NCBI RefSeq assembly: GCF_011398155.1
Contig: NZ_AP021888.1
Location: forward strand, 248,001-312,000
Origin: Thiosulfativibrio zosterae
Lineage (GTDB): Bacteria > Pseudomonadota > Gammaproteobacteria > Thiomicrospirales > Thiomicrospiraceae
Direction: 5' to 3'
DNA: 64,000 bases
In this document: positions 17,033-33,957 of the stretch, piece after piece
How the letters are laid out: each line of letters opens with the position of its first letter
Numbering within the stretch: position 1 is the stretch's first letter
Position numbers and translations under genes: made by a program
Notes under the pieces: generated by a model
What the model was told of the DNA's origin: nothing
What the model saw: only the letters and a program-made list of their open reading frames with translations
Databases searched by the model: none

Positions 17033-17288
17033 GGGGCGCAGGCTTTAGCCTGCTGAGTGAGGATGGATTGCAGAATAGAAGGCTAAAGCCTTCGCCCCAA
17101 AAGTTGACGGGAGTTAATGGGGCAGGCCTAAGCATGCTGAGAGTTTATGCGTTATTTAACAGAATGCAGACGGGAGTTATGGGGCGCAGGCTTCAGCCTG
17201 CTTAATGTTGATAGTTTATTTAACAGAAGGCTAAAGCCTTCGCCCCGAAGGCAGACGAGAGTAAATGGGGCGCAGGCTTTAGCCTGCT
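17033..17288. repeat. Array of REP-like extragenic palindromes
   Basis: Six copies of a roughly 22-bp GC-rich unit fill the gap between the chemoreceptor and bioC. Units at 17033-17054, 17181-17202 and 17267-17288 read GGGGCGCAGGCTT(T/C)AGCCTG and continue CT. Units at 17077-17098 and 17225-17246 are the inverse type, AGAAGGCTAAAGCCTTCGCC ending CC. A degraded copy is at 17119-17138. Forward and inverse units pair, so 17033-17098 and 17181-17246 can each fold into long hairpins. A shared spacer, GACGGGAGTTAATG and close variants, precedes the later forward units. The layout is that of REP/BIME elements. A further pair is at 33876-33938. Confidence 0.85.
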
Positions 17289-21389: not shown

Positions 21390-22076
21390 GTGAATCGGTT
21401 AGAGCGTTGGGTATTTCCGCCCACTTGTGTGCTCACGCACCAAAAACTATCCAATAATAGTCAATTTGATTTGGCTCAGGCGATTTTGGAAGGGTTTTCG
21501 CAAACCCAAGCAGTCTGTCCGATTTGTAATGAGGCCACGCCAAATGCTCAAGTATGTGGCGCTTGTTTAACCCAAAAACCGAGTTTTGATGTCACCTTAA
21601 CGGCATTTGATTTTGAGGGTGATTTAAGGGAGTTGATTTTGCAGTTTAAATATCAACCGGCGCTACATTTAGGTAAATTACTGGCCGATATTTCAGTGCA
21701 TCATTTTAAAGGTCGAGCGGTGGATGCGCTCTTGCCCGTGCCGATTCACCTGGAGCGTTTGTTAAATCGCGGATTTAATCAATCAACTCTGTTGGCCAGG
21801 CATTGGGGTAAGCAACTCAATCTCCCTGTCATCACCGATGCGATTGAGCGTATCAAAGCCACGGAAACCCAAACTCATTTAACCGCCAAAGAGCGCCAAG
21901 AAAATTTAAAAGGCGCGTTTGCCGTCAATGTAGCGGCGTTGGCAGGCTGCAAAAGTATTGCGTTGGTGGACGATGTTATTACCACAGGTGCCACCATGCA
22001 GGCAATTGCAGGCGTTTTAAAGACTCACCTTCCTGCATTACGAATAGAGGCATGGGCGGTCGCAAAAACACGCTGA
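21390..22076 (+). CDS. comF: ComF family protein (phosphoribosyltransferase fold, competence-linked)
   Basis: A 228-residue protein with an N-terminal zinc-finger region (FPPTC, CPIC, CGAC) and a C-terminal phosphoribosyltransferase domain whose signature is IALVDDVITTGATM. ComF proteins are required for natural transformation in several bacteria, probably handling incoming single-stranded DNA. GTG at 21390 is chosen because a strong AAAGGAGG site precedes it and the protein then begins NRLERWVFPPTC as in relatives; an upstream TTG in frame would place extra residues over the bio promoter. Its presence is relevant to the uptake-sequence hypothesis. Confidence 0.9.
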   Translation: MNRLERWVFPPTCVLTHQKLSNNSQFDLAQAILEGFSQTQAVCPICNEATPNAQVCGACLTQKPSFDVTLTAFDFEGDLRELILQFKYQPALHLGKLLADISVHHFKGRAVDALLPVPIHLERLLNRGFNQSTLLARHWGKQLNLPVITDAIERIKATETQTHLTAKERQENLKGAFAVNVAALAGCKSIALVDDVITTGATMQAIAGVLKTHLPALRIEAWAVAKTR

Positions 22077-22169
22077 TAAGTGTGGTTTATAGGGTTATAA
22101 GAATTAATTGAATTTTGGCGTTTTAAAATCAGTATGATAAAAGAATAGGTGTAATTAAGAGATTGTTTT

Positions 22170-22664
22170 ATGAAGTATTTTTCAGTGTTATTTACAGTTT
22201 TATTGATGTTGTCGCCGCCCACATTTGCAGAGTCTCAATATATCCGCTCCCTTCAGTGCAAGTTAATGGAGTCGCCAAACTTTAAGGCAGAAGTGGTGGC
22301 GACCTTGTCGCAAGGACTTGAGGTGAGTGTTTTAGAAAAGAAAGGGGTTTGGGTAAAAATTGAAACCCCAGAGAAAATCAGTGGTTGGGTTTCTAAATTT
22401 TTATTGTCGCCTGTTAAGCCAGATGAGAATGCAACCAGTATCTTGGACTTTAAAGAAGAAGATTTAAATAATGTTAGACAACGAGCATCGGTGATTACCA
22501 CAGCCGCTGCTGCCCGTGGCTTAACGGCTAAAGAGGTGAGTGACGGAGTCAATACGCCAGTGGTGGGTGGGCAAAATTTTGATGCGCTCAAGTTGATGGA
22601 AAGTTATCGCCCCAGTGATGCTGAAATCGAAGCGTTTATTCGCTCTATTCCCATGTCTAAATAA
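22170..22664 (+). CDS. Exported SH3-domain protein
   Basis: A 164-residue periplasmic protein: a signal peptide (MKYFSVLFTVLLMLSPPTFA), then a bacterial SH3 domain (about 25-80) with the typical WVKIETPEKISGWVSKFLL end. The C-terminal half is Ala/Asp-rich and probably helical (TTAAAARGLTAKEVSDGV). It is the first gene of a four-gene run; the GTG of the M48 gene directly follows its TAA. SH3b domains often bind peptidoglycan; the link is general. A similar SH3-plus-M48 pairing suggests joint action in the periplasm, which is inference. Confidence 0.82.
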   Translation: MKYFSVLFTVLLMLSPPTFAESQYIRSLQCKLMESPNFKAEVVATLSQGLEVSVLEKKGVWVKIETPEKISGWVSKFLLSPVKPDENATSILDFKEEDLNNVRQRASVITTAAAARGLTAKEVSDGVNTPVVGGQNFDALKLMESYRPSDAEIEAFIRSIPMSK

Positions 22665-24545
22665 GTGCAGAGGTTGAAAGTGATTTTACGATTACTGGTT
22701 TTGGGGTTGTTAAGTAGCTTAAGTTTGCAGGTGCAAGCGCTGCAAAACACGCGCATGAGTGTGCTTGAGGCTGCGGACGAATGGACACCACAAGACCTAG
22801 AGGCAGAAATCTATTTTGGTCGCAATTTAGCGGCCAAAATGTTGGGGCAGTCGCCTTTGTATGCTGATGAAGTGGCGCAGGGGTATGTGAATGAGTTAGG
22901 CGCAAGTTTAGCTAAAAATAGCAATCGTCCTGATTTAAAGTTTTATTTTGCAATTTTGGATGATGAACAAATTAATGCCTTTGCAGCACCAGGAGGTTAT
23001 GTATTTATCACCAAGGGAGCGATTGAGTTTTGTGAAAACGAAGCAGAACTGGCCGGTATTCTAGCGCATGAAATAGGCCATGTGACGGAGCGACACATCG
23101 TTAAGCAACTTAAAATACGCGGTAAAAACGCCGATCAAATGACAGGCTTAATGTCCTCGATGATTATGGGTGGTGGTCAGACTCTGACATCCGCTTTTAG
23201 CATGGCAATGGACGAGGCGCTCGATACTTGGAAAGGCGCGGGGCTTAAAGACCGAAAAGATGAATATCAAGCCGATCAAATATCGACAGAAATCCTCTTA
23301 AAAACAGGCTACGACCCCAAAGCCTTGGCAGGCTACCTCGCTCGTGTAAGCGAGCACAAGGAAGAAGTCAAAGATAGAGTAAGAACACACCCGCCTTTTC
23401 ATTTGCGTATTAAAGCCATAGAACAGCAGTTATATGGCACAAAGCCACTTGATCAATTTGAGAATCCACAGCGTTTAAATAACAACTTAGCCTCCATCTT
23501 CAAATATGTGGAAGAAGAAACCTTAGCTAAAAATCTATTTTTATATGCGCCACCTCTTGAATCAGAAAGTTTTCAAAGTTACTTAAATCAAATGAATGGC
23601 GCAGTTAATGCTGTTCAAGGTAAGAAAAATGTTTTGCCTGTTTTTGCAGTTTTGTCAGATGAAGTTTTTTATAAGCGTTATGATTATTTCACGGTCATTT
23701 CTAGTGGTTTGTTGTCTCAACTTGAAAATGAGGCACAATTAGCCTCGCTCTTGACGGTATTTTCTATTCCAGAAGGACAGAAAAATATTGATGATGCGAT
23801 TAGCATGGCAATGATTAATTTAGGTTATAACCCGATGGCATGGGTTGAAGTTTTAAGCCACTTTGAAGCTCAAATACAAGATTTTGAGTTTCAAAATGCT
23901 AAGGTTAGGTCGCAACAACTGCGGAAGGATTTATCTGATGATGGTGCTTTGAATCAAAAGCGTTGGCAAGAGCAATTTAAATTTGCTTTGGCTGAAACCG
24001 TTGAAAAAGGAATCTTGCCGTTAGCCTATATGGCGCAAATTGATGCATCTGAAAAGCGCAACCGTTATTTGAACTTGGTTGCCTATTCGATTGCTAAAGC
24101 AATTGGGTATGAAAATTTTAATGGGTTGTTAGTTATTCAGTCAGACCTCCCAATGATGCGGCTTCAAGTAAACCAAGTATTGCTGTCCTCTAGTGTATTA
24201 AACGAGCTAAATAATGAAGCTGAGTTAGCGGGTCTTATTGCAAATACTATGCTGTATGGCTTGAATCGTCGTCAAAATCTTCAAAAACACTCTGATGAAA
24301 TTTACCTAGAAGCGGACTCCTCAACCATGAGCTTGTTAAATGAGTTAGGTTACGGCCCAGCGCATTGGTTAGCTTATTTAAAAGCGCGTGAAACCAAAGG
24401 AAGTTCAGAGTTCAAAAATCTTATTAATCAATCCAATATAGATGACCGAACAGCCATTTTGACTCAAAAAACGCAAGGCCGACCTGCCTGGAAACGCTTT
24501 GGACAGAGTCATGAACAGCGTTTTAAAGAATATATGAAAAGTTAA
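22665..24545 (+). CDS. M48-family metallopeptidase, BepA-like, with extra degenerate modules
   Basis: Exported 626-residue protein with a signal peptide (about 1-25) and an M48 domain: NAFAAPGGYVFITKGAI, the zinc site HEIGH (135-139) and the third ligand in DEYQAD (Glu200). BepA relatives act on stalled outer-membrane assembly intermediates and are usually near 480 residues. Beyond about 300 the protein seems to repeat the module twice. Segments at 326-405 and 488-579 again show LENEAQLASLL or LNNEAELAGLI and end LGYNPMAW or LGYGPAHW, matching ENEAELAGIL and TGYDPKAL. Neither repeat has HEXXH; the third keeps a DEIYLEAD like the metal-glutamate motif. The start is GTG directly after the SH3 gene stop. 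It is followed 18 nt later by a porin gene. Confidence 0.88.
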   Translation: MQRLKVILRLLVLGLLSSLSLQVQALQNTRMSVLEAADEWTPQDLEAEIYFGRNLAAKMLGQSPLYADEVAQGYVNELGASLAKNSNRPDLKFYFAILDDEQINAFAAPGGYVFITKGAIEFCENEAELAGILAHEIGHVTERHIVKQLKIRGKNADQMTGLMSSMIMGGGQTLTSAFSMAMDEALDTWKGAGLKDRKDEYQADQISTEILLKTGYDPKALAGYLARVSEHKEEVKDRVRTHPPFHLRIKAIEQQLYGTKPLDQFENPQRLNNNLASIFKYVEEETLAKNLFLYAPPLESESFQSYLNQMNGAVNAVQGKKNVLPVFAVLSDEVFYKRYDYFTVISSGLLSQLENEAQLASLLTVFSIPEGQKNIDDAISMAMINLGYNPMAWVEVLSHFEAQIQDFEFQNAKVRSQQLRKDLSDDGALNQKRWQEQFKFALAETVEKGILPLAYMAQIDASEKRNRYLNLVAYSIAKAIGYENFNGLLVIQSDLPMMRLQVNQVLLSSSVLNELNNEAELAGLIANTMLYGLNRRQNLQKHSDEIYLEADSSTMSLLNELGYGPAHWLAYLKARETKGSSEFKNLINQSNIDDRTAILTQKTQGRPAWKRFGQSHEQRFKEYMKS

Positions 24546-24563
24546 AATAAGAAGCAGAAAATT

Positions 24564-25847
24564 ATGAAGTATAAGTCCACCGCAATTTTATTTAGCAGCA
24601 TCTTATTGCTGATTAGCACTAAAGTGTATGCTGATCAGTATCATTATAGTGATATCTTAATCGGTGACAGAGCGGCAGGTTTTTCTGGCGCCTATACTGC
24701 GATTTCTGATGATCCGTCGGGGCTTTATTACAACCCAGCCGGCATAGTGCGAGCGCCAGATGGCCAGCTTTCTGCCAGCGCAAACGCCTATAATCAAACT
24801 GCTTACAAATATTCTAATATTAACGCTGGCGGACATACCTGGGAAAGAAAATCGAATGCCAATATTGCTAATTTTTTCGGAGCCTTTCAACCGTTTGGTG
24901 AATTCATGGTTGGGTTTTCAATCGCAGTACCAGATTCTAACAAAGCCAGCCAAGATGAATCTTTTCATAATTATGAAGCAGCTGACCCTAATTGGACCAT
25001 CCAAGATGAAATCATCAACTACAAAGAAGACGATACGACCTTACTATTTGGTCCAAGTTTGGCCTACAAGTTAAATGACAAGTTATCACTGGGCGCAACG
25101 CTTTATATTCATGTCAGAAATGACGAATTTACCTTTAGACAAGAAACTCGAGCCAGCAATAATGCCAGTGGAGATATTGTTTATGACATTCTGTTTCAAA
25201 AGTATAAAACTAATGAGATGGGCTTAAAACCAATGTTAGGTGTCATGTGGGATGCCTCTAAAACTTTTTCAGTGGGTGCAACCCTCGCTCAAACATTTAT
25301 GCTTTCTCAAGATCCTATGGCACAAAACAGTCAAATTACCAATGCCAGTATAGATAAAACCTCTGGTGTAACGGTGATTACTAAAGTAGGCAATAATGTC
25401 GATGCTGGAAATTATTTTCCGGTCGGCATGTCTAAAGCACCTGATAGACAGTTGCCATTAGAAGCCAAGCTTGGGTTTGCTTGGTTTCCAGACTCTCGTT
25501 TAATTGTGTCAACCGATATCCAATATTACGGAGAAACTTCGGACTATGCTTCGGTATTAAATATTGCAGGGGGCATGGAGTATTTCTTTTCTCCCAAAAT
25601 ATCTACCCGATTTGGCTTGAATACCAATAATTCAAATAACAAATCCCTAAATCAGCCAGGGTTTGATGTGGATATGCTGGGTTTAACATGGAGCTTAAGT
25701 CAACACAATCGCTTAAGTGCCTTAACATTTGGCTTAAATTATAGTCAAGGAACAGGGAAAGCCAGATTGTTAGAAGGGTCTAATCGCATTCAAGATTTAA
25801 CCGTGCAATCATTAACCGCGTACATCGCAACATCAATGAATTTCTAA
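24564..25847 (+). CDS. FadL/OmpP1-type outer-membrane protein
   Basis: A 427-residue predicted outer-membrane beta-barrel. The signal peptide ends at VYA (residue 23). GDRAAGFSGAYTAISDD (34-50) followed by YYNPAG matches the N-terminal hatch of the FadL/OmpP1/TodX superfamily. The rest alternates short beta strands and ends in MNF, with a terminal Phe as in many porins. FadL proteins pass hydrophobic molecules through the outer membrane; here the substrate is unknown. The position between an M48 BepA-like gene and a giant lipoprotein gene, with 18- and 11-nt gaps, suggests a role in export or anchoring of the lipoprotein, which is inference. Confidence 0.85.
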   Translation: MKYKSTAILFSSILLLISTKVYADQYHYSDILIGDRAAGFSGAYTAISDDPSGLYYNPAGIVRAPDGQLSASANAYNQTAYKYSNINAGGHTWERKSNANIANFFGAFQPFGEFMVGFSIAVPDSNKASQDESFHNYEAADPNWTIQDEIINYKEDDTTLLFGPSLAYKLNDKLSLGATLYIHVRNDEFTFRQETRASNNASGDIVYDILFQKYKTNEMGLKPMLGVMWDASKTFSVGATLAQTFMLSQDPMAQNSQITNASIDKTSGVTVITKVGNNVDAGNYFPVGMSKAPDRQLPLEAKLGFAWFPDSRLIVSTDIQYYGETSDYASVLNIAGGMEYFFSPKISTRFGLNTNNSNNKSLNQPGFDVDMLGLTWSLSQHNRLSALTFGLNYSQGTGKARLLEGSNRIQDLTVQSLTAYIATSMNF

Positions 25848-25858
25848 TGGATTCTTAA

Positions 25859-28800
25859 ATGAATTGCAAACTGCACTACCCTAAAGTTTTTTTAATTTCC
25901 TTATTTATTGGTGGGTTAAGTGGCTGTGACTCACCTTCAAAATTAGATGCAGAAGGTATTGGAAAATATATTTCAGGCGTGGGCAATATTGTTATGTCGG
26001 GCTTGGTCGTTGACCCTGCTATTGGTGGTGCAACAGTTTATATAGATGCGAATGGCGATGGCGTCATAGATGATAACGACCCCCAAGCCCAAACAGATTC
26101 ATTAGGTTACTTTAACTACAATCCTGTAACTAATGTTGACTATTGTGCCGTAGGGCCGTCAGCTTATTGCTTTCCAATGAAAGAAGAATATGCAGGCCAG
26201 GTTTTGAGATCTTCTGGCGGAACTGATTTAGTCACCAACAAGCCATTTGAAGGCGAGATGCAGCTAAAGTTATCAAGTGAAGTAAATGAAAATCAAACCG
26301 AAGGCATTGTCATAACGCCGTTATCTTCGATAGTAGCTTTCATGACAGACGAACAGAAAGCTTCACTTAAAAGTCTTTTAAACCTTAATGAAAGCGATGA
26401 TTTAAATAAATTAGATCCCCTCGACTTTAGTGATGCAAAATATCCCACAGCAGAAGACAAAGCTAAGCAACAACAACGCTTAAAAATAATTGTTAATATT
26501 CAAAACACCGTACAAGCCTTAACCAGCGCACTTGCCACTAGCGATAAAACACAAAATAACGCACTGAATGAAGCAGTTTATGCAGTTGTGGCGCAAAATG
26601 TTACAAGTTTTACAACCGATTTACAACGAGCAGATAATCAACCCACAAACACCGACAACTCTGTCGATAGCTTATTAGATAAAGTGATTATACAAGTCTC
26701 TCAAAGTACTAAAGTTAGTAATGCCGTTAAAACACAGGCACAATCCTTATCAACCACTTCACCCAATGCCAACCCAACTACCAGAAATGCCCTGTTGAAT
26801 AATGTAAGCGCCTTAAGTGCCGCATCTAATAATGTTTTTAATACCACAACAATCACAACCAACGCCAATGCGTCTAAGGTGCTATTTAAAACAGAAGTTG
26901 TTGGTGAAACCGTTAATGCTACACCTTTTGATATTACCAATACTCAAACAGCCATCACCATTATCAATTCAACAGTTGTCAATAATCTAATAGATGGAAG
27001 TACAGCCGACTTTACTCAACTCACCAATATAGCAATTACACAAAACATTACTTCAGAAGAAGAATTAGGTGGAATTATCGACAGTGGTGTTGGTACAGGG
27101 GATCCCGTACCGGGCAATACAGATATAGGAACCACAACAGGAGACGGAACCACGACAGGAGACGGAACCACGACAGGAGATGGAACCACGACAGGAGATG
27201 GAACCACAACAGGAGATGGAACCACGACAGGAGGGGGAGGGACGACGATTCCACCAATAACCAATACCGCACCAGTTGCAGTGGATGACAGCATCACCGC
27301 CATCGAAGATACCGTGTTTACCTCAACGATAGACTTAGATGCGAATGACACAGATCTAGATAGCAACACCCTAAGTGTTGTGGCAGGAACCTTCTCAACT
27401 GCTCAAGGTGGTACCTTGATTTTGGCTTCAAATGGAAGCTACACTTATCTTTCGGCAACTAATTTTAATGGCACTGATACGGTTGACTACACAGTGACGG
27501 ACGGCGCATTAACTGATATTGGGACTTTAACAATTACAGTTGAACCCGTTAATGATTTGCCGACCGCCAATGGTGAATCAATCACCGTTTCAAAAGATGT
27601 TGAATATATTTCTTCAACTGTTAATTTGTTAGCGAATGATACGGATGTGGACGGTGATGATTTAAGCATTGTTTCTGGTACATACACTACTCAAGCTGGC
27701 GGTTCAATAACCTTAAACGCCAATGGGAGTTTTTCTTATACACCGGCAGCCAATTTCAATGGTACAGATGCTTATGTTTATGAAGTCAGTGATGATGGCG
27801 GGGTTAATGCAAGCGCTACGCTAACGATTATAGTCACCGATGCGATGAGTGATGCAGATGAAACAGTCACAACAGCTGAAGACACGGCGTTGACAGGCAA
27901 TGTTATGTCAAACCTCACAGATGCCGACAGCAGCTCACACTCAGTGACCAGCTTCACAGTCGAAGGCCAAACCTACCAACCAGGTAGCACAGCGACGATT
28001 ACCGGTGGAACCATCACCATCGCTGCGACCGGAGCTTACACCTTCACGTCAAGTGAGAACTTCAATGGATCGGTGCCTGCGATCAGCTACGCGATGGTAG
28101 ACAACACCGACGCCAATGACACAGACACCTCAACCTTAAACATCAGCGTCACTGCGGTGACCGATGCGATGAGTGATGCAGATGAAACACTCACAACAGC
28201 TGAAGACACGGCGTTGACAGGCAATGTGATGTCAAACCTCACAGATGCCGACAGCAGCTCACACTCAGTGACCAGCTTCACAGTCGAAGGCCAAACCTAC
28301 CAACCAGGTAGCACAGCGACGATTACCGGTGGAACCATCACCATCGCTGCGACCGGAGCTTACACCTTCACGCCAAGTGAGAACTTCAACGGCACAGTGC
28401 CTGCGATCAGCTATGCGATGGTCGACAATAACGACGCCACTGACACAGACACCTCAACCTTAAACATCAGCGTCAACTCAGTTGATGATGTGCCTGTGGC
28501 AGTGGAGGACAACTTCACCTTAAATGAAGATGGCGCAATCACAGACACCCTAGCCACAAACGACACCCTCAGTGGCGATGGTGGCAATGTGTTCACAAAA
28601 GCCACAGATCCAGCGCACGGCACAGTGACGGTAAACGCAGACGGCACCTTCACCTACACCCCAGCGGCCAACTACAACGGAGCTGACAGCTTTAGCTATA
28701 CGATCACCGATGCAGATGGAGACACCTCAACGGCAGTGGTCAACCTAACGGTGAACTCAGTTGATGATGTGCCTGTGGCAGTGGAGGACAACTTCACCTT

Positions 28801-30913
28801 AAATGAAGATGGCGCAATCACAGACACCCTAGCCACAAATGACACCCTCAGTGGCGATGGTGGCAATGTGTTCACAAAAGAGACAGATCCAGCGCACGGC
28901 ACAGTGACGGTAAACGCAGACGGCACCTTCACCTACACCCCAGCGGCCAACTACAACGGAGCTGACAGCTTTAGCTATACGATCACCGATGCAGATGGAG
29001 ACACCTCAACGGCAGTGGTCAACATCACAGTTGTTGCAGTAACCAATGCCATGAGTGATGCAGATGAAACCCTCAGCACCAACGAAGACACCGCGCTCAG
29101 TGGCAATGTGATGTCAAACCTCACAGATGCCGACAGCAGCTCTCACTCAGTGACCAGCTTCAGTGTGGCAGGAGTCGCCACAAGCTATACACCAGGTCAA
29201 ACAGCTACGATTGTAAATTTAGGAACCATCACCATTGCCACAAACGGCGACTACACCTTCACGCCAGCGGCCAACTTCAATGGGTCGGTGCCTGCGATCA
29301 GCTATGCGATGGTAGACAACAACGACGCCAATGACACAGACACCTCAACGCTCAACATCACAGTCGATGCAGTGAATGATAGCCCTGTAGCTTTATTGGC
29401 AAGCACATCTTCTCCTATTATTGGTAATCCGTTTGATTTAGAAAGTGGTTTAACAGCCGAAGGTTTGATTGAACTGGATAACCATAAAATTCTGATTTAT
29501 GGATTAGATAAGATCAATAATAAACTTTATATCTCGCGATGGTTTGCAAATGGCAGGGTTGATACTACCTATGGAACGGATGGAATATTGACAGTTAATG
29601 TTGATGCCAATGCGGAAATTGATGCTGTAAAACAATCTGATGGTAAGGTAAATTTTTTAATAGCTTACCCGACTGCAGGGGCTGCTCAAATTAAAATCAT
29701 GCAATTGGATAGCGAAGGTGTGGTGAATATTACATTTGGAACAAGCGGAGTCAAACAACTGTCTATTATCAACTCACCAAGCACTTTCACTCAAGTCAGG
29801 TTGTTAATGCAAGGCACTAAAATGATTGTACTGGGTTTGGATGATAGTAGTAACACACTTGTTATGCGCCTTCTCTCTACGGGTGTATATGATACAACTT
29901 TTGGAGATTCATCAAATGGCTTAGCATACGGTGAAGGATTTCTAGACAATCTGAGTGATGTGGTAATAGGTAGTGACGATACTATTTACTATATGGGCGC
30001 TTATAATAGTGATATTTTCATATCAAAATTAAATGCTGATGGAACCATAAATGCTGCTTTCAACAGTAATGCAAGATTAGAATTGATTATTGATGCATTA
30101 GGAGTTTTTACTGCATCTAATTTGGTATTAGATGGGTCTGCATTGATGTATTTGTTAGCTTATAAAGATGAAGATTCAAACAATAAACTTATTTTAGGAA
30201 AGGTATCAGCGGCAGATGGAAGTGCCGTTATAGATTCATATTTTTCATTAGGTTACAAAATCTTGGATTTAAGCGATGCACCACAAATGTTTCCCACGAG
30301 TGTTGAGATGTTGCCTAATAATGGTTTGTTGATAGGAGGCTATAACCCAAATACGGTCAATAGCATCAGTAACACCCTAAAACTGGCAAAGTTTAATTAC
30401 TCAACAGGTGATTTGGAATATTCTTTTAGTGGCAACGCTGGAGTTTATATAAGTCAAAGTGTTGGAAAAGTGTCTGATATTGCACTGATAGGTACTAATA
30501 ATGATGAAATTTGGATGCTCGGTGACAGATTATCAGAGTCTGTAGGCAATAACGGTACATTCAACATCACTCGACTTGATTTGGGTGGTGTGGTCGTTAA
30601 CTATGACTTGGCTTATGATGTCAATAATGGCGTGCTGCCTACAGCGGTAAGCGTGTCAATACCAGCCTTTGATGTGGAAGGTGATAATTTTACCTATAGT
30701 CTACTGGGTACGGCGTCAAATGCAGCTTCAGTTACGCTCGATTCTGCAACGGGTGAGTTAAGTTATTCAAATGATAATTGCTATGCGGCTGGAACGCAGG
30801 TGGATGGTTTAGGTCATTATTATGACTTGGTAGATTTTAATATGACAGATTCTCAAGGTGCAACCTCAAGTACACAGACATTTACAGTAAGATTATTTAA
30901 CTGTGGCGCTTAA
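25859..30913 (+). CDS. Giant surface lipoprotein with cadherin-like repeats and a beta-propeller
   Basis: 1684 residues. The lipoprotein signal ends in LSGC (Cys23). Residues about 45-260 include a calcium-loop motif DANGDGVIDDND (63-74) and a helical region seen in large surface proteins. A GDGTTT repeat linker (about 423-460) leads into tandem cadherin/VCBS-like domains (about 468-1172). Among these are two nearly identical 108-residue modules (660, 768), two of 93 residues (872, 965) and a third related copy (about 1061). Then come delta-60-type propeller repeats (RVDTTYGTDG, VNITFGTSG, YDTTFGDSS; about 1180-1580) and a final cadherin-like domain. Such architecture suits calcium-stabilised cell-surface adhesion. 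It is the last gene of the operon starting at 22170. The function is not established. Confidence 0.88.
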   Translation: MNCKLHYPKVFLISLFIGGLSGCDSPSKLDAEGIGKYISGVGNIVMSGLVVDPAIGGATVYIDANGDGVIDDNDPQAQTDSLGYFNYNPVTNVDYCAVGPSAYCFPMKEEYAGQVLRSSGGTDLVTNKPFEGEMQLKLSSEVNENQTEGIVITPLSSIVAFMTDEQKASLKSLLNLNESDDLNKLDPLDFSDAKYPTAEDKAKQQQRLKIIVNIQNTVQALTSALATSDKTQNNALNEAVYAVVAQNVTSFTTDLQRADNQPTNTDNSVDSLLDKVIIQVSQSTKVSNAVKTQAQSLSTTSPNANPTTRNALLNNVSALSAASNNVFNTTTITTNANASKVLFKTEVVGETVNATPFDITNTQTAITIINSTVVNNLIDGSTADFTQLTNIAITQNITSEEELGGIIDSGVGTGDPVPGNTDIGTTTGDGTTTGDGTTTGDGTTTGDGTTTGDGTTTGGGGTTIPPITNTAPVAVDDSITAIEDTVFTSTIDLDANDTDLDSNTLSVVAGTFSTAQGGTLILASNGSYTYLSATNFNGTDTVDYTVTDGALTDIGTLTITVEPVNDLPTANGESITVSKDVEYISSTVNLLANDTDVDGDDLSIVSGTYTTQAGGSITLNANGSFSYTPAANFNGTDAYVYEVSDDGGVNASATLTIIVTDAMSDADETVTTAEDTALTGNVMSNLTDADSSSHSVTSFTVEGQTYQPGSTATITGGTITIAATGAYTFTSSENFNGSVPAISYAMVDNTDANDTDTSTLNISVTAVTDAMSDADETLTTAEDTALTGNVMSNLTDADSSSHSVTSFTVEGQTYQPGSTATITGGTITIAATGAYTFTPSENFNGTVPAISYAMVDNNDATDTDTSTLNISVNSVDDVPVAVEDNFTLNEDGAITDTLATNDTLSGDGGNVFTKATDPAHGTVTVNADGTFTYTPAANYNGADSFSYTITDADGDTSTAVVNLTVNSVDDVPVAVEDNFTLNEDGAITDTLATNDTLSGDGGNVFTKETDPAHGTVTVNADGTFTYTPAANYNGADSFSYTITDADGDTSTAVVNITVVAVTNAMSDADETLSTNEDTALSGNVMSNLTDADSSSHSVTSFSVAGVATSYTPGQTATIVNLGTITIATNGDYTFTPAANFNGSVPAISYAMVDNNDANDTDTSTLNITVDAVNDSPVALLASTSSPIIGNPFDLESGLTAEGLIELDNHKILIYGLDKINNKLYISRWFANGRVDTTYGTDGILTVNVDANAEIDAVKQSDGKVNFLIAYPTAGAAQIKIMQLDSEGVVNITFGTSGVKQLSIINSPSTFTQVRLLMQGTKMIVLGLDDSSNTLVMRLLSTGVYDTTFGDSSNGLAYGEGFLDNLSDVVIGSDDTIYYMGAYNSDIFISKLNADGTINAAFNSNARLELIIDALGVFTASNLVLDGSALMYLLAYKDEDSNNKLILGKVSAADGSAVIDSYFSLGYKILDLSDAPQMFPTSVEMLPNNGLLIGGYNPNTVNSISNTLKLAKFNYSTGDLEYSFSGNAGVYISQSVGKVSDIALIGTNNDEIWMLGDRLSESVGNNGTFNITRLDLGGVVVNYDLAYDVNNGVLPTAVSVSIPAFDVEGDNFTYSLLGTASNAASVTLDSATGELSYSNDNCYAAGTQVDGLGHYYDLVDFNMTDSQGATSSTQTFTVRLFNCGA
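27128..27235 (+). repeat. 18-bp minisatellite in the surface lipoprotein gene
   Basis: Six 18-bp units of the type GGAACCACGACAGGAGAT (the last degenerate) encode Gly-Thr-Thr-Thr-Gly-Asp. The units preserve frame, so copy-number change would alter linker length without switching the gene off. Confidence 0.92.
27839..28474 (+). repeat. Two near-identical cadherin-like modules (type A)
   Basis: Unit 27839-28162 (324 bp) is followed by a nearly identical unit from 28163, starting GATGCGATGAGTGATGCAGA. They differ at few positions, for example TCAAGTGAG versus CCAAGTGAG, showing recent duplication. A more diverged third copy starts near 29045. Confidence 0.9.
28475..29032 (+). repeat. Two near-identical cadherin-like modules (type B)
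   Basis: Units 28475-28753 and 28754-29032 are each 279 bp and nearly identical. Both start AACTCAGTTGATGATGTGCC; one visible difference encodes KATDP versus KETDP. Copy number probably varies between strains. Confidence 0.9.
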
Positions 30914-30947
30914 TAAAAATTAGCCTTTAGATTGGGTGTTTTAACGA

Positions 30948-32765
30948 TTAAAAGCGCTGTTCTTTCTCTTTCTGCAATCTCACTGTAATGGCATCGGCTT
31001 CTAGGGGTTTACTGAAAAAATAGCCTTGGAAGTAGTTGCCGCCAAAACTGGCGAGCTGTTCTAGGTTTTCGATGGTTTCTACGCCCTCGGCAATCACATC
31101 TAATTTAAACGAATGGGCTAATTTGATAATGCTTTCTAACATGGCTTTATCGGTTGGTGAGTACTGCGTTTTGTAGACAAATTCTTTGTCAATTTTGAGC
31201 GTATGCACTGGAATTTGCGCAAGGAAAGACAGGGACGAATAGCCAGTACCAAAATCGTCCAGTGACAATTTAAACCCAAAGTTTCTCAGATCGTTTAGCT
31301 TGCGATAATTATCTTGCTTCACAAGTAGGGCATTGTGTTCTGTGATTTCAAGGTCAATCGCACTGGGCGGCAATCCGTAATATTTAAGGGTTTCCAGCAG
31401 TTCTTGGCAGAAATTGGGTCTGTCAAAATCGTAAGCCGATAGGTTGACACTCACCATAAAATCGGGTTCTATCACGCGCCATAGTTTTAGATGTTTACAG
31501 CTCTCATGAAAAACAAATTGCGTTATTTTGGACACCAAGCCTGCCGCTTCGGCTAAGGGGATAAATTTTTCAGGGGATACAACGCCATGCTCGGAATGCG
31601 CCCAGCGAATGAGTGCCTCAACGCCTACGGTTTTAATGGCACCCTGTTCAAGGTGTTTAACCTTGGGCTGAAAAACCACTGAGAAGCCTTTTTGCGCAAT
31701 GAAATTTGGGTCGCTTAGGGCTTTACGCAAGGCTTGTTCTAAATTGGTTTGTGCCATGCGTTCTTCAGCAAAGTAATCTTCAAATATCTGGTAGCTATTT
31801 CGACCAATGCGTTTGGCATGGTACATAGCAATATCGGCATTTTTAATCAGTGTGCTTGGGTTATCGCCATTGGCGGGATAGGTGGCAATTCCTAAGCTGG
31901 CTGACAGACGCAGGTGATGGTCGCCAATGGTAAATGGATGCCCGAGTTTGTTGATAATATTTTCTGCAATCTTAATAACAGGAGCTAGGTCGTTGATATT
32001 GGGCAGTAACACCACAAATTCATCACCACCAATTCTAGACACCGTATCAGATTTTCGCACAGACAAAGAAATCACATCGCCCGCCATTTTAAGCAGTTTG
32101 TCGCCAGTAGAGTGACCATAAGTGTCATTGATGGGTTTAAAGAAATCTAAGTCAATATAGATGGCGCCAATCAGCGTTTGAGTGCGTTGTGCAGCAGTAA
32201 TGGCTCTTTCAAATCTGTCTTGTAATAACACACGATTTGCCAACCCCGTTAAGCTGTCGAAATTGGCTTGGTAATCAATTAAAGCGGTTTTTTCAGCGAG
32301 ATTTTTATGCGCTTTTTTGAGTTCTTTAATGGCTTCTTCAAGTTCTTGTTGTTTGTCGCGTAAATCACGCTGGCTAATCATTAAAGAAGTAAAGTCATAG
32401 ATAATCAGGGCGACTTGCTGTTTTTCCGCATCGTAAGGCATGATGGCAGCATCTTGCTGCATAAACGGAAAGGTGTCAGCTCGCGTGATTTTTTGATTGG
32501 TGATGGGGATTAAATAACCTTCATGTTCTGCAGACAAAAAGCTGGGCGCATTCAAGAAGAGCGCGCTTTTGACTTTACGGTTAAGCATGGCTCTTTCTGA
32601 TTGGCTGAGTTCAAAGGCTTCAAACAAAGAGGTACCTGGCGTAATGCTTTTTTTGGCGTAGGCTTCAATCCATTCATTGCTGTATAAAATCTCGTAGCTG
32701 TCATTAGCAGTCGAGATTAAGATGACGCCGGCATTGATATTGGAGAGGATTTGCTTGAAGTTCAT
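30948..32765 (-). CDS. GGDEF-EAL cyclic-di-GMP enzyme of a CheY-CheC operon
   Basis: A 605-residue cytoplasmic protein: a PAS-like N-terminus (about 1-125), a coiled-coil linker (about 130-165), a canonical GGDEF domain (GGDEF at 246-250, preceded by the RKSD inhibitory-site match) and a canonical EAL domain (VEALIRW, NLSAYDF, EITEHN, DDFGTGYSS, KIDKEF, EGVET). Both cyclase and phosphodiesterase sites look intact, so net activity cannot be predicted. ATG at 32763-32765 lies 3 nt beyond the CheC-like gene, so all three genes of this cluster are co-transcribed and the upstream response regulator may control it. Confidence 0.92.
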   Translation of the reverse strand: MNFKQILSNINAGVILISTANDSYEILYSNEWIEAYAKKSITPGTSLFEAFELSQSERAMLNRKVKSALFLNAPSFLSAEHEGYLIPITNQKITRADTFPFMQQDAAIMPYDAEKQQVALIIYDFTSLMISQRDLRDKQQELEEAIKELKKAHKNLAEKTALIDYQANFDSLTGLANRVLLQDRFERAITAAQRTQTLIGAIYIDLDFFKPINDTYGHSTGDKLLKMAGDVISLSVRKSDTVSRIGGDEFVVLLPNINDLAPVIKIAENIINKLGHPFTIGDHHLRLSASLGIATYPANGDNPSTLIKNADIAMYHAKRIGRNSYQIFEDYFAEERMAQTNLEQALRKALSDPNFIAQKGFSVVFQPKVKHLEQGAIKTVGVEALIRWAHSEHGVVSPEKFIPLAEAAGLVSKITQFVFHESCKHLKLWRVIEPDFMVSVNLSAYDFDRPNFCQELLETLKYYGLPPSAIDLEITEHNALLVKQDNYRKLNDLRNFGFKLSLDDFGTGYSSLSFLAQIPVHTLKIDKEFVYKTQYSPTDKAMLESIIKLAHSFKLDVIAEGVETIENLEQLASFGGNYFQGYFFSKPLEADAITVRLQKEKEQRF

Positions 32766-32768
32766 AGG

Positions 32769-33365
32769 TTAAAAACTCAGGGAGTCGGCCAAGATTTTGA
32801 GCGAGGGTTTTTTGAAGAGGTAGTGGACTTCAGAATGAATATTGGCCTCTGGGATATCTAAGATGGTGGTAATGGTGACCACGCTTTCGTATTTTTGGAT
32901 ATTTAAGTGCGCCAGTAAATCCATTTTTTGCACGATCTCAGCAACCGGTGTGCTGTAAGACATAGGCAAATTAGAGATGTCGGCGAGCACTTTTGTGGAT
33001 GAGGTGGTGATGATATTGCCCACATCATAAGCGCAAGCAATAATTTCTTTATTGTTGGGGTCAGCCACCTTATGCATGATTTTGGCGAGGGTTTTGGCAG
33101 ACGCTCGGTCTAAAATCAGTAGGGTTTCACCAGAAATTTGGCCGTTAAAGTTTTGCTGTGAAATGACGGTTTCATTGGTTAAGCGGGTCTCTATTTTTTG
33201 GTAAAAGGCTTCGTAGCTTTCAAATTTCACCTCTGGAATATGCAGGTGAATGTCGTGCCCTGTAAATTCGTGCAATAAACCTGCGGCACGGCCAAAGGCG
33301 ATATTAATCAGTTCTTGAAAGTAATCAATCTGATCTTGGTCAAAAAAAACTTCTTGTTCGCTCAT
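32769..33365 (-). CDS. CheC-like CheY-phosphate phosphatase
   Basis: A 198-residue protein of the CheC/CheX/FliY group, which removes phosphate from CheY-type regulators. Two copies of the family helix motif are recognisable, FQELINIAFGRAAGLL (about 17-32) and YDVGNIITTSSTKVLADI, each with the key Asn; the acidic partner is Glu in the first and Asp in the second. ATG 33363-33365 is chosen because it overlaps the response-regulator stop by 4 nt (ATGA); an upstream TTG adds only two residues. The context suggests it resets the adjacent regulator. Confidence 0.82.
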   Translation of the reverse strand: MSEQEVFFDQDQIDYFQELINIAFGRAAGLLHEFTGHDIHLHIPEVKFESYEAFYQKIETRLTNETVISQQNFNGQISGETLLILDRASAKTLAKIMHKVADPNNKEIIACAYDVGNIITTSSTKVLADISNLPMSYSTPVAEIVQKMDLLAHLNIQKYESVVTITTILDIPEANIHSEVHYLFKKPSLKILADSLSF

Positions 33366-33727
33366 AACCAAATACTCATCTTTCGAGCAATTTTGTCGGC
33401 TGAAATGGGCTTGTTAATAAAGTCAATTGCACCCAGTTGCAAGGCTTTGTCGTGGGTACTTTTTTGAGTGTCCGCGGTGACGATGACAATTTTGGCTTTG
33501 GGATGACTTTTGAGAATGCGCTCTAAGGCTTCCATGCCATTCATTTTGGGCATGGTCAAATCAAAAAAACTGAGTGCGGGTTGGTTGTCCATAAATTGTT
33601 GAACGGCCTCTTCGCCATCAACCGCATAAATGATGTCGTGGGACTCTTTTACATCTGCGCCGATGGCGGCGGTCATCATCATTCTAGAGGTACGGGTATC
33701 GTCAGCAATCAGAATTTTGGGTTTCAT
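33362..33727 (-). CDS. Single-domain CheY-like response regulator
   Basis: A 121-residue receiver domain with no output domain. Phosphorylation residues are visible: acidic pair Asp9-Asp10, phospho-acceptor Asp56 (FFDLTMPKMNG), Thr84 and Lys106 (NKPIS). It is translationally coupled to the CheC-like gene and shares an operon with the GGDEF-EAL gene. It is likely to act by protein contact, either on the neighbour or on the flagellar motor. No histidine kinase gene is adjacent. Confidence 0.93.
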   Translation of the reverse strand: MKPKILIADDTRTSRMMMTAAIGADVKESHDIIYAVDGEEAVQQFMDNQPALSFFDLTMPKMNGMEALERILKSHPKAKIVIVTADTQKSTHDKALQLGAIDFINKPISADKIARKMSIWL

Positions 33728-33875
33728 GTTGGGAGTAGCCTTTTAACCGTATTAATGGGTGAAGCAGTCTATTATGCCGAGTTTTCTATGGGATTTCTAT
33801 AAATAATGTTTCGAGTTGACTAAGCCAGTCTTTAGTTGGCTTGAACTTGGGTGTGAATATCGTGATGGATTCAAA

Positions 33876-33938
33876 AGCAGGCTAAAGCCTGCTCCCAAAA
33901 TTGGACTAGAGTTTATGGGGCGAAGGCTTTAGCCTTCT
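33876..33938. repeat. REP-like palindrome pair
   Basis: Units AGCAGGCTAAAGCCTGCTCC (33876-33895, plus CA) and GGGGCGAAGGCTTTAGCCTT (33917-33936, plus CT) are of the same family as the array at 17033. The spacer GACTAGAGTTTATG matches the array spacer. They sit in the 230-bp gap between the response-regulator gene and the YugP-like gene. Confidence 0.82.
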
Positions 33939-33957
33939 ATTTACGAAATCATTACTG

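Follow-up and report, generated by a model that had tools for sequence, protein, structure and literature searches.

Three tightly coupled genes on the minus strand of the window, the whole 64,000-nucleotide stretch of Thiosulfativibrio zosterae DNA analyzed here, encode a CheY, a CheC/CheX-type phosphatase-like protein and a GGDEF-EAL protein. All three reading frames are open. The cheY stop and the cheC start overlap by 4 nt in a common ATGA (33362-33365), and cheC ends at 32769, leaving a 3-nt gap (32766-32768) before the ATG of the GGDEF-EAL gene at 32765. The original prediction had given the coordinates, the overlap and the gap correctly. The start adopted for cheC is the ATG at 33365; the ORF listing had a TTG at 33371. 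A scan for promoters and terminators returned sites no more numerous than in shuffled sequences. The term REC-CheC-PAS-output module denotes a category defined in this analysis, a receiver fused or adjacent to CheC with a gene of the PAS subtype directly downstream, and the window genes form such a module by this definition.

22074..33957, no strand: 11.9-kb segment between a phosphoribosyltransferase-like gene and the zinc peptidase gene, holding the module
33362..33727, minus strand: cheY, single-domain receiver of 121 aa, with D9, D10, acceptor D56, T84 and K106
32769..33365, minus strand: CheC-type phosphatase-like gene, 198 aa, overlapping cheY by ATGA
33234..33326, minus strand: first CheC site, D14-x3-E18-x2-N21-x22-P44, intact
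32946..33038, minus strand: second CheC site, A110-x3-D114-x2-N117-x22-P140, degenerate
30948..32765, minus strand: PAS-GGDEF-EAL gene, 605 aa, 3 nt past cheC
32364..32756, minus strand: PAS domain of the module's subtype, aa 4-134
31797..32267, minus strand: GGDEF domain, aa 167-323, with GGDEF at 246 and the RxxD inhibitory site at 237
31005..31700, minus strand: EAL domain, aa 356-587
EAL motifs by aa position: EALIR 383, NLS 441, EITE 473, DDFGTG 503, KID 524, AEGVE 559, QGYFF 580

The cheY product is a CheY-type receiver (Pfam Response_reg, 7.1e-23) that consists of a single domain with the acidic pocket D9/D10, the acceptor D56, T84 and K106. The acceptor aspartate is present in 148 of the 149 receivers in the alignment of relatives.

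The phosphatase motif of CheC, FliY and CheX is D/S-x3-E-x2-N-x22-P, and these phosphatases often have two active sites. The window CheC carries the complete motif in its first site. Among its relatives, E18 and N21 are kept in all 151, D14 in 144 (glutamate in the other 7) and P44 in 149. The second site has lost its usual first residue (A110) and has D114, N117 and P140. The protein falls in the Pfam CheX subgroup (1.8e-9; 37.9 bits against a cut-off of 27), while its match to Pfam CheC reaches only 0.038, under the cut-off of that model. An AlphaFold2 model (pLDDT 84.4) has the CheC/FliY/CheX fold and superimposes on T. maritima CheC (1xkr; Z 19.9, rmsd 2.9, 192 aligned residues) and on CheC of the CheC-CheD complex (2f9z; Z 18.9). 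The window CheC is predicted, from its conserved residues, to be able to hydrolyze CheY~P.

Identity between the window CheC and its aligned relatives is just 20-31%. In samples of the family, order, class and phylum, no relative exceeded 31% along most of the protein, short stretches reaching 35%, and a DNA-level plasmid search returned short stretches only. Its end branch in the tree is 4.33 and its placement is unsure. Given this divergence and placement, properties of the whole family may not apply to the window CheC. The window version is an unusually divergent GGDEF-EAL form of the module. The long branch, the degenerate second site and the occurrence of a CheC-like gene in just one of the order's 62 genomes could be read as signs that the copy in the window is a relic, decaying or put to another use, with a CheC that has lost its function. 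This is very improbable, since all three frames are open and the first site, the receiver residues, the GGDEF and inhibitory-site motifs and the EAL motifs are intact.

The 11.9-kb segment that holds the module also contains an M48 peptidase gene, a FadL-like gene and a cadherin/Big adhesin-like gene, and it is absent from the relatives examined. The flanking genes lie 25 nt apart in one relative (L215) and have one other gene between them in two (L213 and L214); in L216 and L217 the flanking neighborhood was absent from the stretch fetched. With the CheC-like gene confined to one of the order's 62 genomes, and the flanks 25 nt or one gene apart in three of five relatives, the idea that the module is ancestral to its own family is unsupported, though its loss in all of the relatives may also account for this pattern.

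The third protein matches Pfam GGDEF (5.1e-49) and EAL (4.2e-65), and the catalytic motifs of both domains are intact, as in a bifunctional enzyme at the level of sequence. The original prediction described a two-domain cyclic-di-GMP enzyme. Both of those domains are there, but an N-terminal PAS domain (aa 4-134) had been overlooked, and this domain is a key part of the module. No Pfam model detects it in the window protein. A PAS profile built from other loci, with the window excluded, matches aa 4-134 at 1.7e-11 among the ORFs searched, and the predicted fold of this region is that of a PAS domain. All but 2 of the 145 matches to this profile directly adjoin CheC; those 2 are overlong ORFs.

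Of 369 genomes sampled from the class, 65 have CheC-like genes, as do 99 of 398 sampled from the phylum, and the conserved set is also present in well-studied genera such as Aeromonas and Pseudoalteromonas. An even sample of the class provided 69 CheC-like loci from 64 genomes, all with a receiver: 27 have it as a fusion with CheC and 42 as a neighbor. The next gene encodes PAS-GGDEF in 45 loci, a PAS histidine kinase in 8, PAS alone in 4 and PAS-GGDEF-EAL in 2. The remaining loci have REC-GGDEF-EAL (2), GGDEF-EAL without a PAS match (2), an unassigned gene (1) or none called (5); one of the last five (L089) is an ORF-calling artifact and is actually PAS-GGDEF. A second, named set comprised 80 loci kept from at least 563 confirmed. 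The next gene is a PAS gene in 79 of these, and the other locus is at a contig end. No ORF was found in which CheC is fused to PAS or to an output domain. The recurrence of the three-part order is far beyond chance. The conserved gene order that the original prediction proposed to look for is found in most of the class loci and nearly all of the named ones; of the two observations it named as counting against it, an unconserved neighborhood and a missing interaction, the first does not hold.

CheC-type proteins are known from chemotaxis, as their family names reflect, and the module might be an operon for a chemotaxis phosphatase that by chance has an unrelated cyclic-di-GMP gene beside it. 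This is scarcely credible with the order conserved over 69 class and 80 named loci. The genome also encodes its own CheZ (C1:1038363-1038899) next to a CheA-like Hpt gene; other CheA-like genes lie elsewhere. No CheA- or CheW-like or other che gene was noticed in the listed part of the window (24-42 kb). A role for the window CheC as chemotaxis phosphatase was judged unlikely on account of the CheZ beside the CheA-like Hpt gene and the further CheA-like genes; because the genome has its own CheZ, the window CheC-type protein is probably not the chemotaxis phosphatase.

A cyclic-di-GMP enzyme gene is third in 51 of the 69 class loci. Outside the class, the third gene carries a histidine kinase in all 20 loci chosen by hand from 51 genomes with matches, 16 of them with a PAS match. 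Aeromonas and some others have a lone PAS in this position. It follows from these kinases and lone PAS proteins that PAS, and not the cyclic-di-GMP enzyme, is the constant partner. The core is REC-CheC-PAS with an exchangeable output, and the final output has been exchanged several times in evolution. The lone PAS of Aeromonas has no attached output, and cyclic-di-GMP may not be what the module acts on there.

Co-variation between domains, measured as the rank correlation of pairwise distances with outlier and redundancy filters in three sets of loci, also bears on the core. Loci whose CheC match was shorter than 150 aa, and those lacking PAS and output matches, were left out. In the fused set (77 loci) CheC and PAS correlate at 0.80 (0.84 with unranked distances), compared to 0.47 for receiver and PAS, 0.30 for receiver and CheC on the same chain and 0.30 for PAS and GGDEF on the same chain. 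The CheC-PAS value is 0.89 in 34 separate loci and 0.79 in 20 loci with a kinase; given the output domain it is 0.78, 0.85 and 0.67 in the fused, separate and kinase sets, respectively. HisF, a short and slowly changing protein (mean distance 0.22), served as species control after 5 of 30 genomes were dropped (no match in G058 and G286, a distant match only in G195 and G402, a partial one in G325). Under this control CheC-PAS stands at 0.87 (25 genomes) and 0.64 (19 fused), is the top of six pairs in both, and was equaled in 0 of 2000 permutations. The ranking changes when outliers are removed from the separate set (23 rows; CheC-PAS 0.79, receiver-CheC 0.83) and from the kinase set (17 rows; CheC-PAS 0.76, receiver-PAS 0.84). 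That CheC tracks PAS more than its own fused receiver indicates the same core of receiver, CheC and PAS with a swappable output. Inheritance of the whole operon alone correlates all of its domains, and the receiver and GGDEF may keep evolutionary time less evenly; the higher CheC-PAS correlation is therefore only suggestive that CheC, rather than the receiver, is the likelier contact of PAS. Conserved residues that could serve a CheC-PAS interface are, in window numbering, K64, F76, E80, M102 and Q104.

The original prediction held that a phosphorylated CheY, timed by its phosphatase, sets cyclic-di-GMP output. The intact residues of the receiver and first site, and the frequency of an enzyme as third gene, agree with this; the constancy of PAS as the partner modifies it. 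The likeliest reading, to which we give about even chances, is a single signaling switch in which CheY~P and CheC act on PAS to set cyclic-di-GMP turnover. A kinase encoded elsewhere would phosphorylate CheY at D56; no histidine kinase lies within the module. The CheC-type protein would bind CheY~P and, judging by its catalytic residues, hydrolyze it through D14, E18 and N21 of the first site. Co-variation and conserved order suggest that CheC is also a CheY~P-dependent adaptor that contacts the downstream PAS. This contact would shift the balance between cyclic-di-GMP synthesis by GGDEF and breakdown by EAL, in a direction that is likewise inferred. CheC would thus both read CheY~P and erase it, in a role resembling that of Bacillus CheC toward CheD, and PAS would be a socket to which different outputs were attached over evolution.

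In a simpler scheme, that of the original prediction, CheY~P binds the N-terminal region of the enzyme and CheC merely shortens the lifetime of CheY~P. The receiver residues are intact, receiver and PAS correlate given the output (0.40 fused, 0.85 separate, 0.41 kinase), and Bacillus CheC is a CheY~P phosphatase according to PMC3513319. Direct binding is nonetheless rather unlikely, with CheC-PAS far above receiver-PAS in the fused set and first among the pairs under HisF control. Less likely still is that PAS is an upstream sensor whose ligand or state governs the CheY/CheC unit, the attached enzyme being just one output. The kinases that are third genes outside the class could phosphorylate the neighboring CheY, lone PAS proteins exist, and the PAS profile also reaches the PAS domain of RpfR, which has been solved with fatty-acid ligands. 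However, a PAS-GGDEF protein lacks a kinase that could act on CheY, and the 4.5 kb upstream contain none in 64 of the 69 class loci and 79 of the 80 named loci.

CheC-type proteins are known mainly from chemotaxis, and the CheC-like genes looked at here are accompanied, in a conserved arrangement, by a receiver and a protein linked to PAS. Our tentative proposal is that REC-CheC-PAS may be a transferable switch, hitherto unreported as a unit. In this switch, a domain with the fold of the flagellar switch (CheC/FliM) would read CheY~P and dock onto a PAS of its own, while the machine behind PAS has been exchanged several times (histidine kinase, diguanylate cyclase, cyclase-phosphodiesterase or none). 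The logic by which CheY controls the flagellar motor would in this way have been carried over, across the Pseudomonadota, to outputs that are second messengers or kinases. Searches of an open-access library returned no paper on such a module, an absence that is weak evidence. If CheC is an adaptor coupling CheY~P to PAS, a defined partner can be assigned to many orphan response regulators, and three small proteins could be used to test a general link from two-component systems to cyclic-di-GMP.

Among known systems, RpfR (FI-PAS-GGDEF-EAL), a receptor for a fatty-acid signal, shares the PAS-GGDEF-EAL layout, and its PAS is reached by the PAS profile (8.2e-5) and by fold (Z 11.3); the window PAS alone has no sequence match to it. 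In RpfR an N-terminal FI domain precedes PAS, and RpfR is not known to have CheY or CheC partners. The third protein was rejected as an RpfR, as its PAS begins at aa 4 and leaves no room for a preceding domain. By sequence, the PAS profile matches 3mxq best (5.2e-32), the PAS of a V. cholerae sensory-box kinase that is also among the best folds (Z 11.3); it may be VC1084, and VC1083 may be CheC-like. According to PMC4441509, VC1080-VC1087 is a predicted operon in which VC1081 and VC1082 are response regulators, VC1086 an EAL protein and VC1087 an HD-GYP protein; VC1084 and VC1085 are sensory-box kinases according to PMC2709254. Unlike in the window module, the output there would be a kinase.

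Likeness to the CheX family (Borrelia CheX-CheY complex 3hzh; Vibrio cholerae VC0377) lies in the Pfam CheX match and the same fold superfamily (Z 15.4-15.8), but CheC structures match the window protein better (Z 18-20) and cover the whole of it. CheX acts as a dimer. Class II CheC proteins have reportedly been considered likely phosphatases in non-chemotaxis systems (Muff and Ordal, 2008). The CheC fold and the phosphatase motif are shared with the CheC-CheD-CheY~P system of Bacillus subtilis and Thermotoga maritima. The third partner here is a PAS-output protein instead of the CheD deamidase, no che operon was noticed around the module, and receiver and CheC are fused in 27 of the 69 class loci. 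According to PMC3513319, CheY~P strengthens the binding of Bacillus CheC to CheD, and this matters more there than the phosphatase activity of CheC. Bacillus CheC is thus a CheY~P-dependent binder of a third protein, as proposed here for the window CheC.

The module of cheY, a CheC-like gene and a PAS-GGDEF-EAL gene is a real and widespread signalling unit made of known domain families, and the window copy is a divergent GGDEF-EAL variant of it. The unit is apparently little described so far; searches of an open-access library gave no paper on a REC-CheC-PAS module. Muff and Ordal 2008 reportedly deals with class II CheC proteins. The three genes are as follows.

33362-33727, minus strand, cheY
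32769-33365, minus strand, CheC-like gene
30948-32765, minus strand, PAS-GGDEF-EAL gene

Rechecking of coordinates and sequence bore out the layout of the original prediction, in which the first two genes overlap and the third follows closely on the same strand. The ends of cheY and the CheC-like gene have ATGA (33362-33365) in common, and the gap to the GGDEF-EAL gene is 3 nt. By eye, no clear Shine-Dalgarno sequence precedes the GGDEF-EAL start (32765) or the cheY start (33727), and the GGDEF-EAL gene may depend on translational coupling.

Pfam matches Response_reg in CheY, CheX (above cut-off) in the second protein, and GGDEF and EAL in the third. CheY residues D9, D10, D56, T84 and K106 are intact, as are the RxxD, GGDEF and EAL-domain motifs of the enzyme and the first CheC site (D14-x3-E18-x2-N21-x22-P44); the second copy of that site is degenerate. 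All 151 CheC sequences compared have E18 and N21, and the receiver acceptor D is kept in 148 of 149. By sequence, the solved structures closest to the second protein are Thermotoga maritima FliY (2.6e-6) and CheC (0.0039). Its AlphaFold model (pLDDT 84.4) fits T. maritima CheC best (Z 19.9, rmsd 2.9, 192 aligned), followed by FliY (Z 17.4), FliM (Z 16.7) and CheX (Z 15.8).

A search with the window CheC found a CheC-like gene in 65 of 369 evenly drawn genomes of the class, own genome included, and in 1 of 62 genomes of the order. The other 70 matches lie in 69 stretches of 64 genomes, which were retrieved with flanks of about 5 kb per side unless the contig ended earlier. The three-gene order proved conserved by profile assignment, with a receiver beside or within CheC in all 69 loci (27 fused, 42 in an adjacent gene). 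Of the third genes, 45 encode PAS-GGDEF, 8 a PAS-histidine kinase and 4 a PAS alone, and PAS-GGDEF-EAL, REC-GGDEF-EAL and GGDEF-EAL without a PAS match account for 2 each; 1 is unassigned and 5 loci had none called, including L089, which on inspection is PAS-GGDEF. A profile scan of genome contigs with the fused-type alignment yielded at least 563 confirmed stretches, and in the 80 kept, which are skewed to the fused type by query choice, a PAS gene is next in 79, the remaining locus stopping at a contig end; GGDEF is carried by 63. The cyclase signature of module enzymes is GGEEF in 95 and GGDEF in 5, with 12 not parsed, and RxxD is found in 98 of 100 parsed. In a number of Aeromonas loci, L162, L175, L178 and L180 among them, the third gene encodes only a PAS of about 145 aa; because the enzyme domain is absent, some other output is to be expected for the REC-CheC fusion of these loci.

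Residues 4-134 of the third window protein are a PAS domain that was overlooked in the original prediction and that no Pfam model recognises. A PAS profile made without the window, from the genes 3' of CheC at 74 other loci, matched this protein at 1.7e-11 among ORFs of the class and named (profile-scan) loci, and Pfam PAS_4 recognises 45 of the 47 sequences in the PAS alignment. In its own genome, the PAS model matches the module gene at 2.2e-37, a circular result since the window sequence helped to build it, and gives one more, weak match (5.6e-6). The AlphaFold2 model (pLDDT 88.5) is closest to the PAS of a Vibrio cholerae sensory-box kinase (3mxq) and to RpfR PAS (Z 11.3 each), with many further PAS structures less than 1 Z unit away; by sequence, 3mxq is matched at 5.2e-32 with the PAS profile and 4.7e-4 with the window PAS alone. 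The 3mxq domain may come from the VC1080-VC1087 operon. Passages of three reports describe VC1080-VC1087 as a predicted operon whose products include response regulators and proteins of the EAL and HD-GYP types (PMC4441509), VC1084 and VC1085 as two sensory-box kinases (PMC2709254), and VC0377 as a CheX-family member of undetermined role (PMC8789113).

Pairwise distances of CheC and PAS have rank correlations of 0.80 in the fused set (77 loci), 0.89 in the separate set (34 loci) and 0.79 in the kinase set (20 loci); the same-chain pairs of the fused set are lower (receiver-CheC and PAS-GGDEF, 0.30 each). Given the output domain, CheC-PAS is 0.78, 0.85 and 0.67, respectively, and CheC-output given PAS is 0.01, 0.11 and 0.07. 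With outliers removed, REC-CheC (0.83) exceeds CheC-PAS (0.79) in the separate set, and REC-PAS (0.84) exceeds CheC-PAS (0.76) in the kinase set. With HisF as species control, CheC-PAS is the highest of six pairs both in 25 genomes (0.87) and in 19 fused (0.64), and 0 of 2000 permutations were as high. Module distances hardly track HisF over all 25 genomes (0 to 0.27), which could mean either that the module moves between genomes as a unit or that HisF is a weak clock. The co-variation points to CheC-PAS contact, short of proof.

The output has been swapped repeatedly in evolution. In a tree of 94 CheC rows, 13 changes are required for the output labels, counted with rows lacking an output left out, and 2 for the fused state; all five labels need 16 vs a shuffled mean of 40.9. 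The window CheC is an end branch of 4.33 whose placement is unsure. Outside the class, 20 loci were chosen from 51 phylum genomes with matches; all 20 have a histidine kinase in the third gene, 16 have a PAS-profile match in it, and the receiver is directly 5' of or fused to CheC in 14. In some modules there (L227, L228 and L229), the last gene encodes a PAS-hybrid kinase and a REC-GGDEF gene comes next, an order that suggests a relay back to cyclic-di-GMP.

A phosphoribosyltransferase-like gene and a zinc peptidase gene sit close together in 3 of 5 relatives looked at, with 25 nt between them in L215 and a single other gene between them in L213 and L214; the corresponding distance in the window is 11.9 kb. 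Features of this segment and of other parts of the window are as follows.

11.9-kb segment, M48 peptidase, FadL-like porin, 1684-aa cadherin/Big-domain protein and the module
25859-30913, plus strand, gene convergent with the GGDEF-EAL gene, for the 1684-aa protein (seven repeats of cadherin/Big type, one CshA repeat)
33878-33937 and 17038-17287, REP-like palindromes, GAAGGCTTTAGCCTTC and variants

The palindrome has 87 genome copies at ≤1 mismatch vs 0 for a reversed control, and a pair of copies is found immediately upstream of cheY, close to the segment edge. The 1684-aa protein, encoded in the species-specific segment that also holds the module, may be a surface adhesin; the pairing of an adhesin-like gene with a cyclic-di-GMP module is suggestive only. 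The cyclic-di-GMP network of this genome is very dense (65 GGDEF-domain matches in 2.65 Mb), and CheZ and CheA-like genes are located elsewhere in it.

The 4.5 kb upstream hold no kinase in 64 of the 69 class loci and in 79 of the 80 named loci. The CheY kinase would be mostly unlinked in GGDEF-type loci, and in kinase-type loci the PAS-kinase may itself be the CheY kinase. In Bacillus, according to passages of PMC3513319, CheC-CheD binding is strengthened by CheY~P, and the phosphatase activity of CheC is less important than CheD binding. By analogy, the probable mechanism of the module is that CheC reads CheY~P and acts on the PAS domain, as Bacillus CheC does on CheD.
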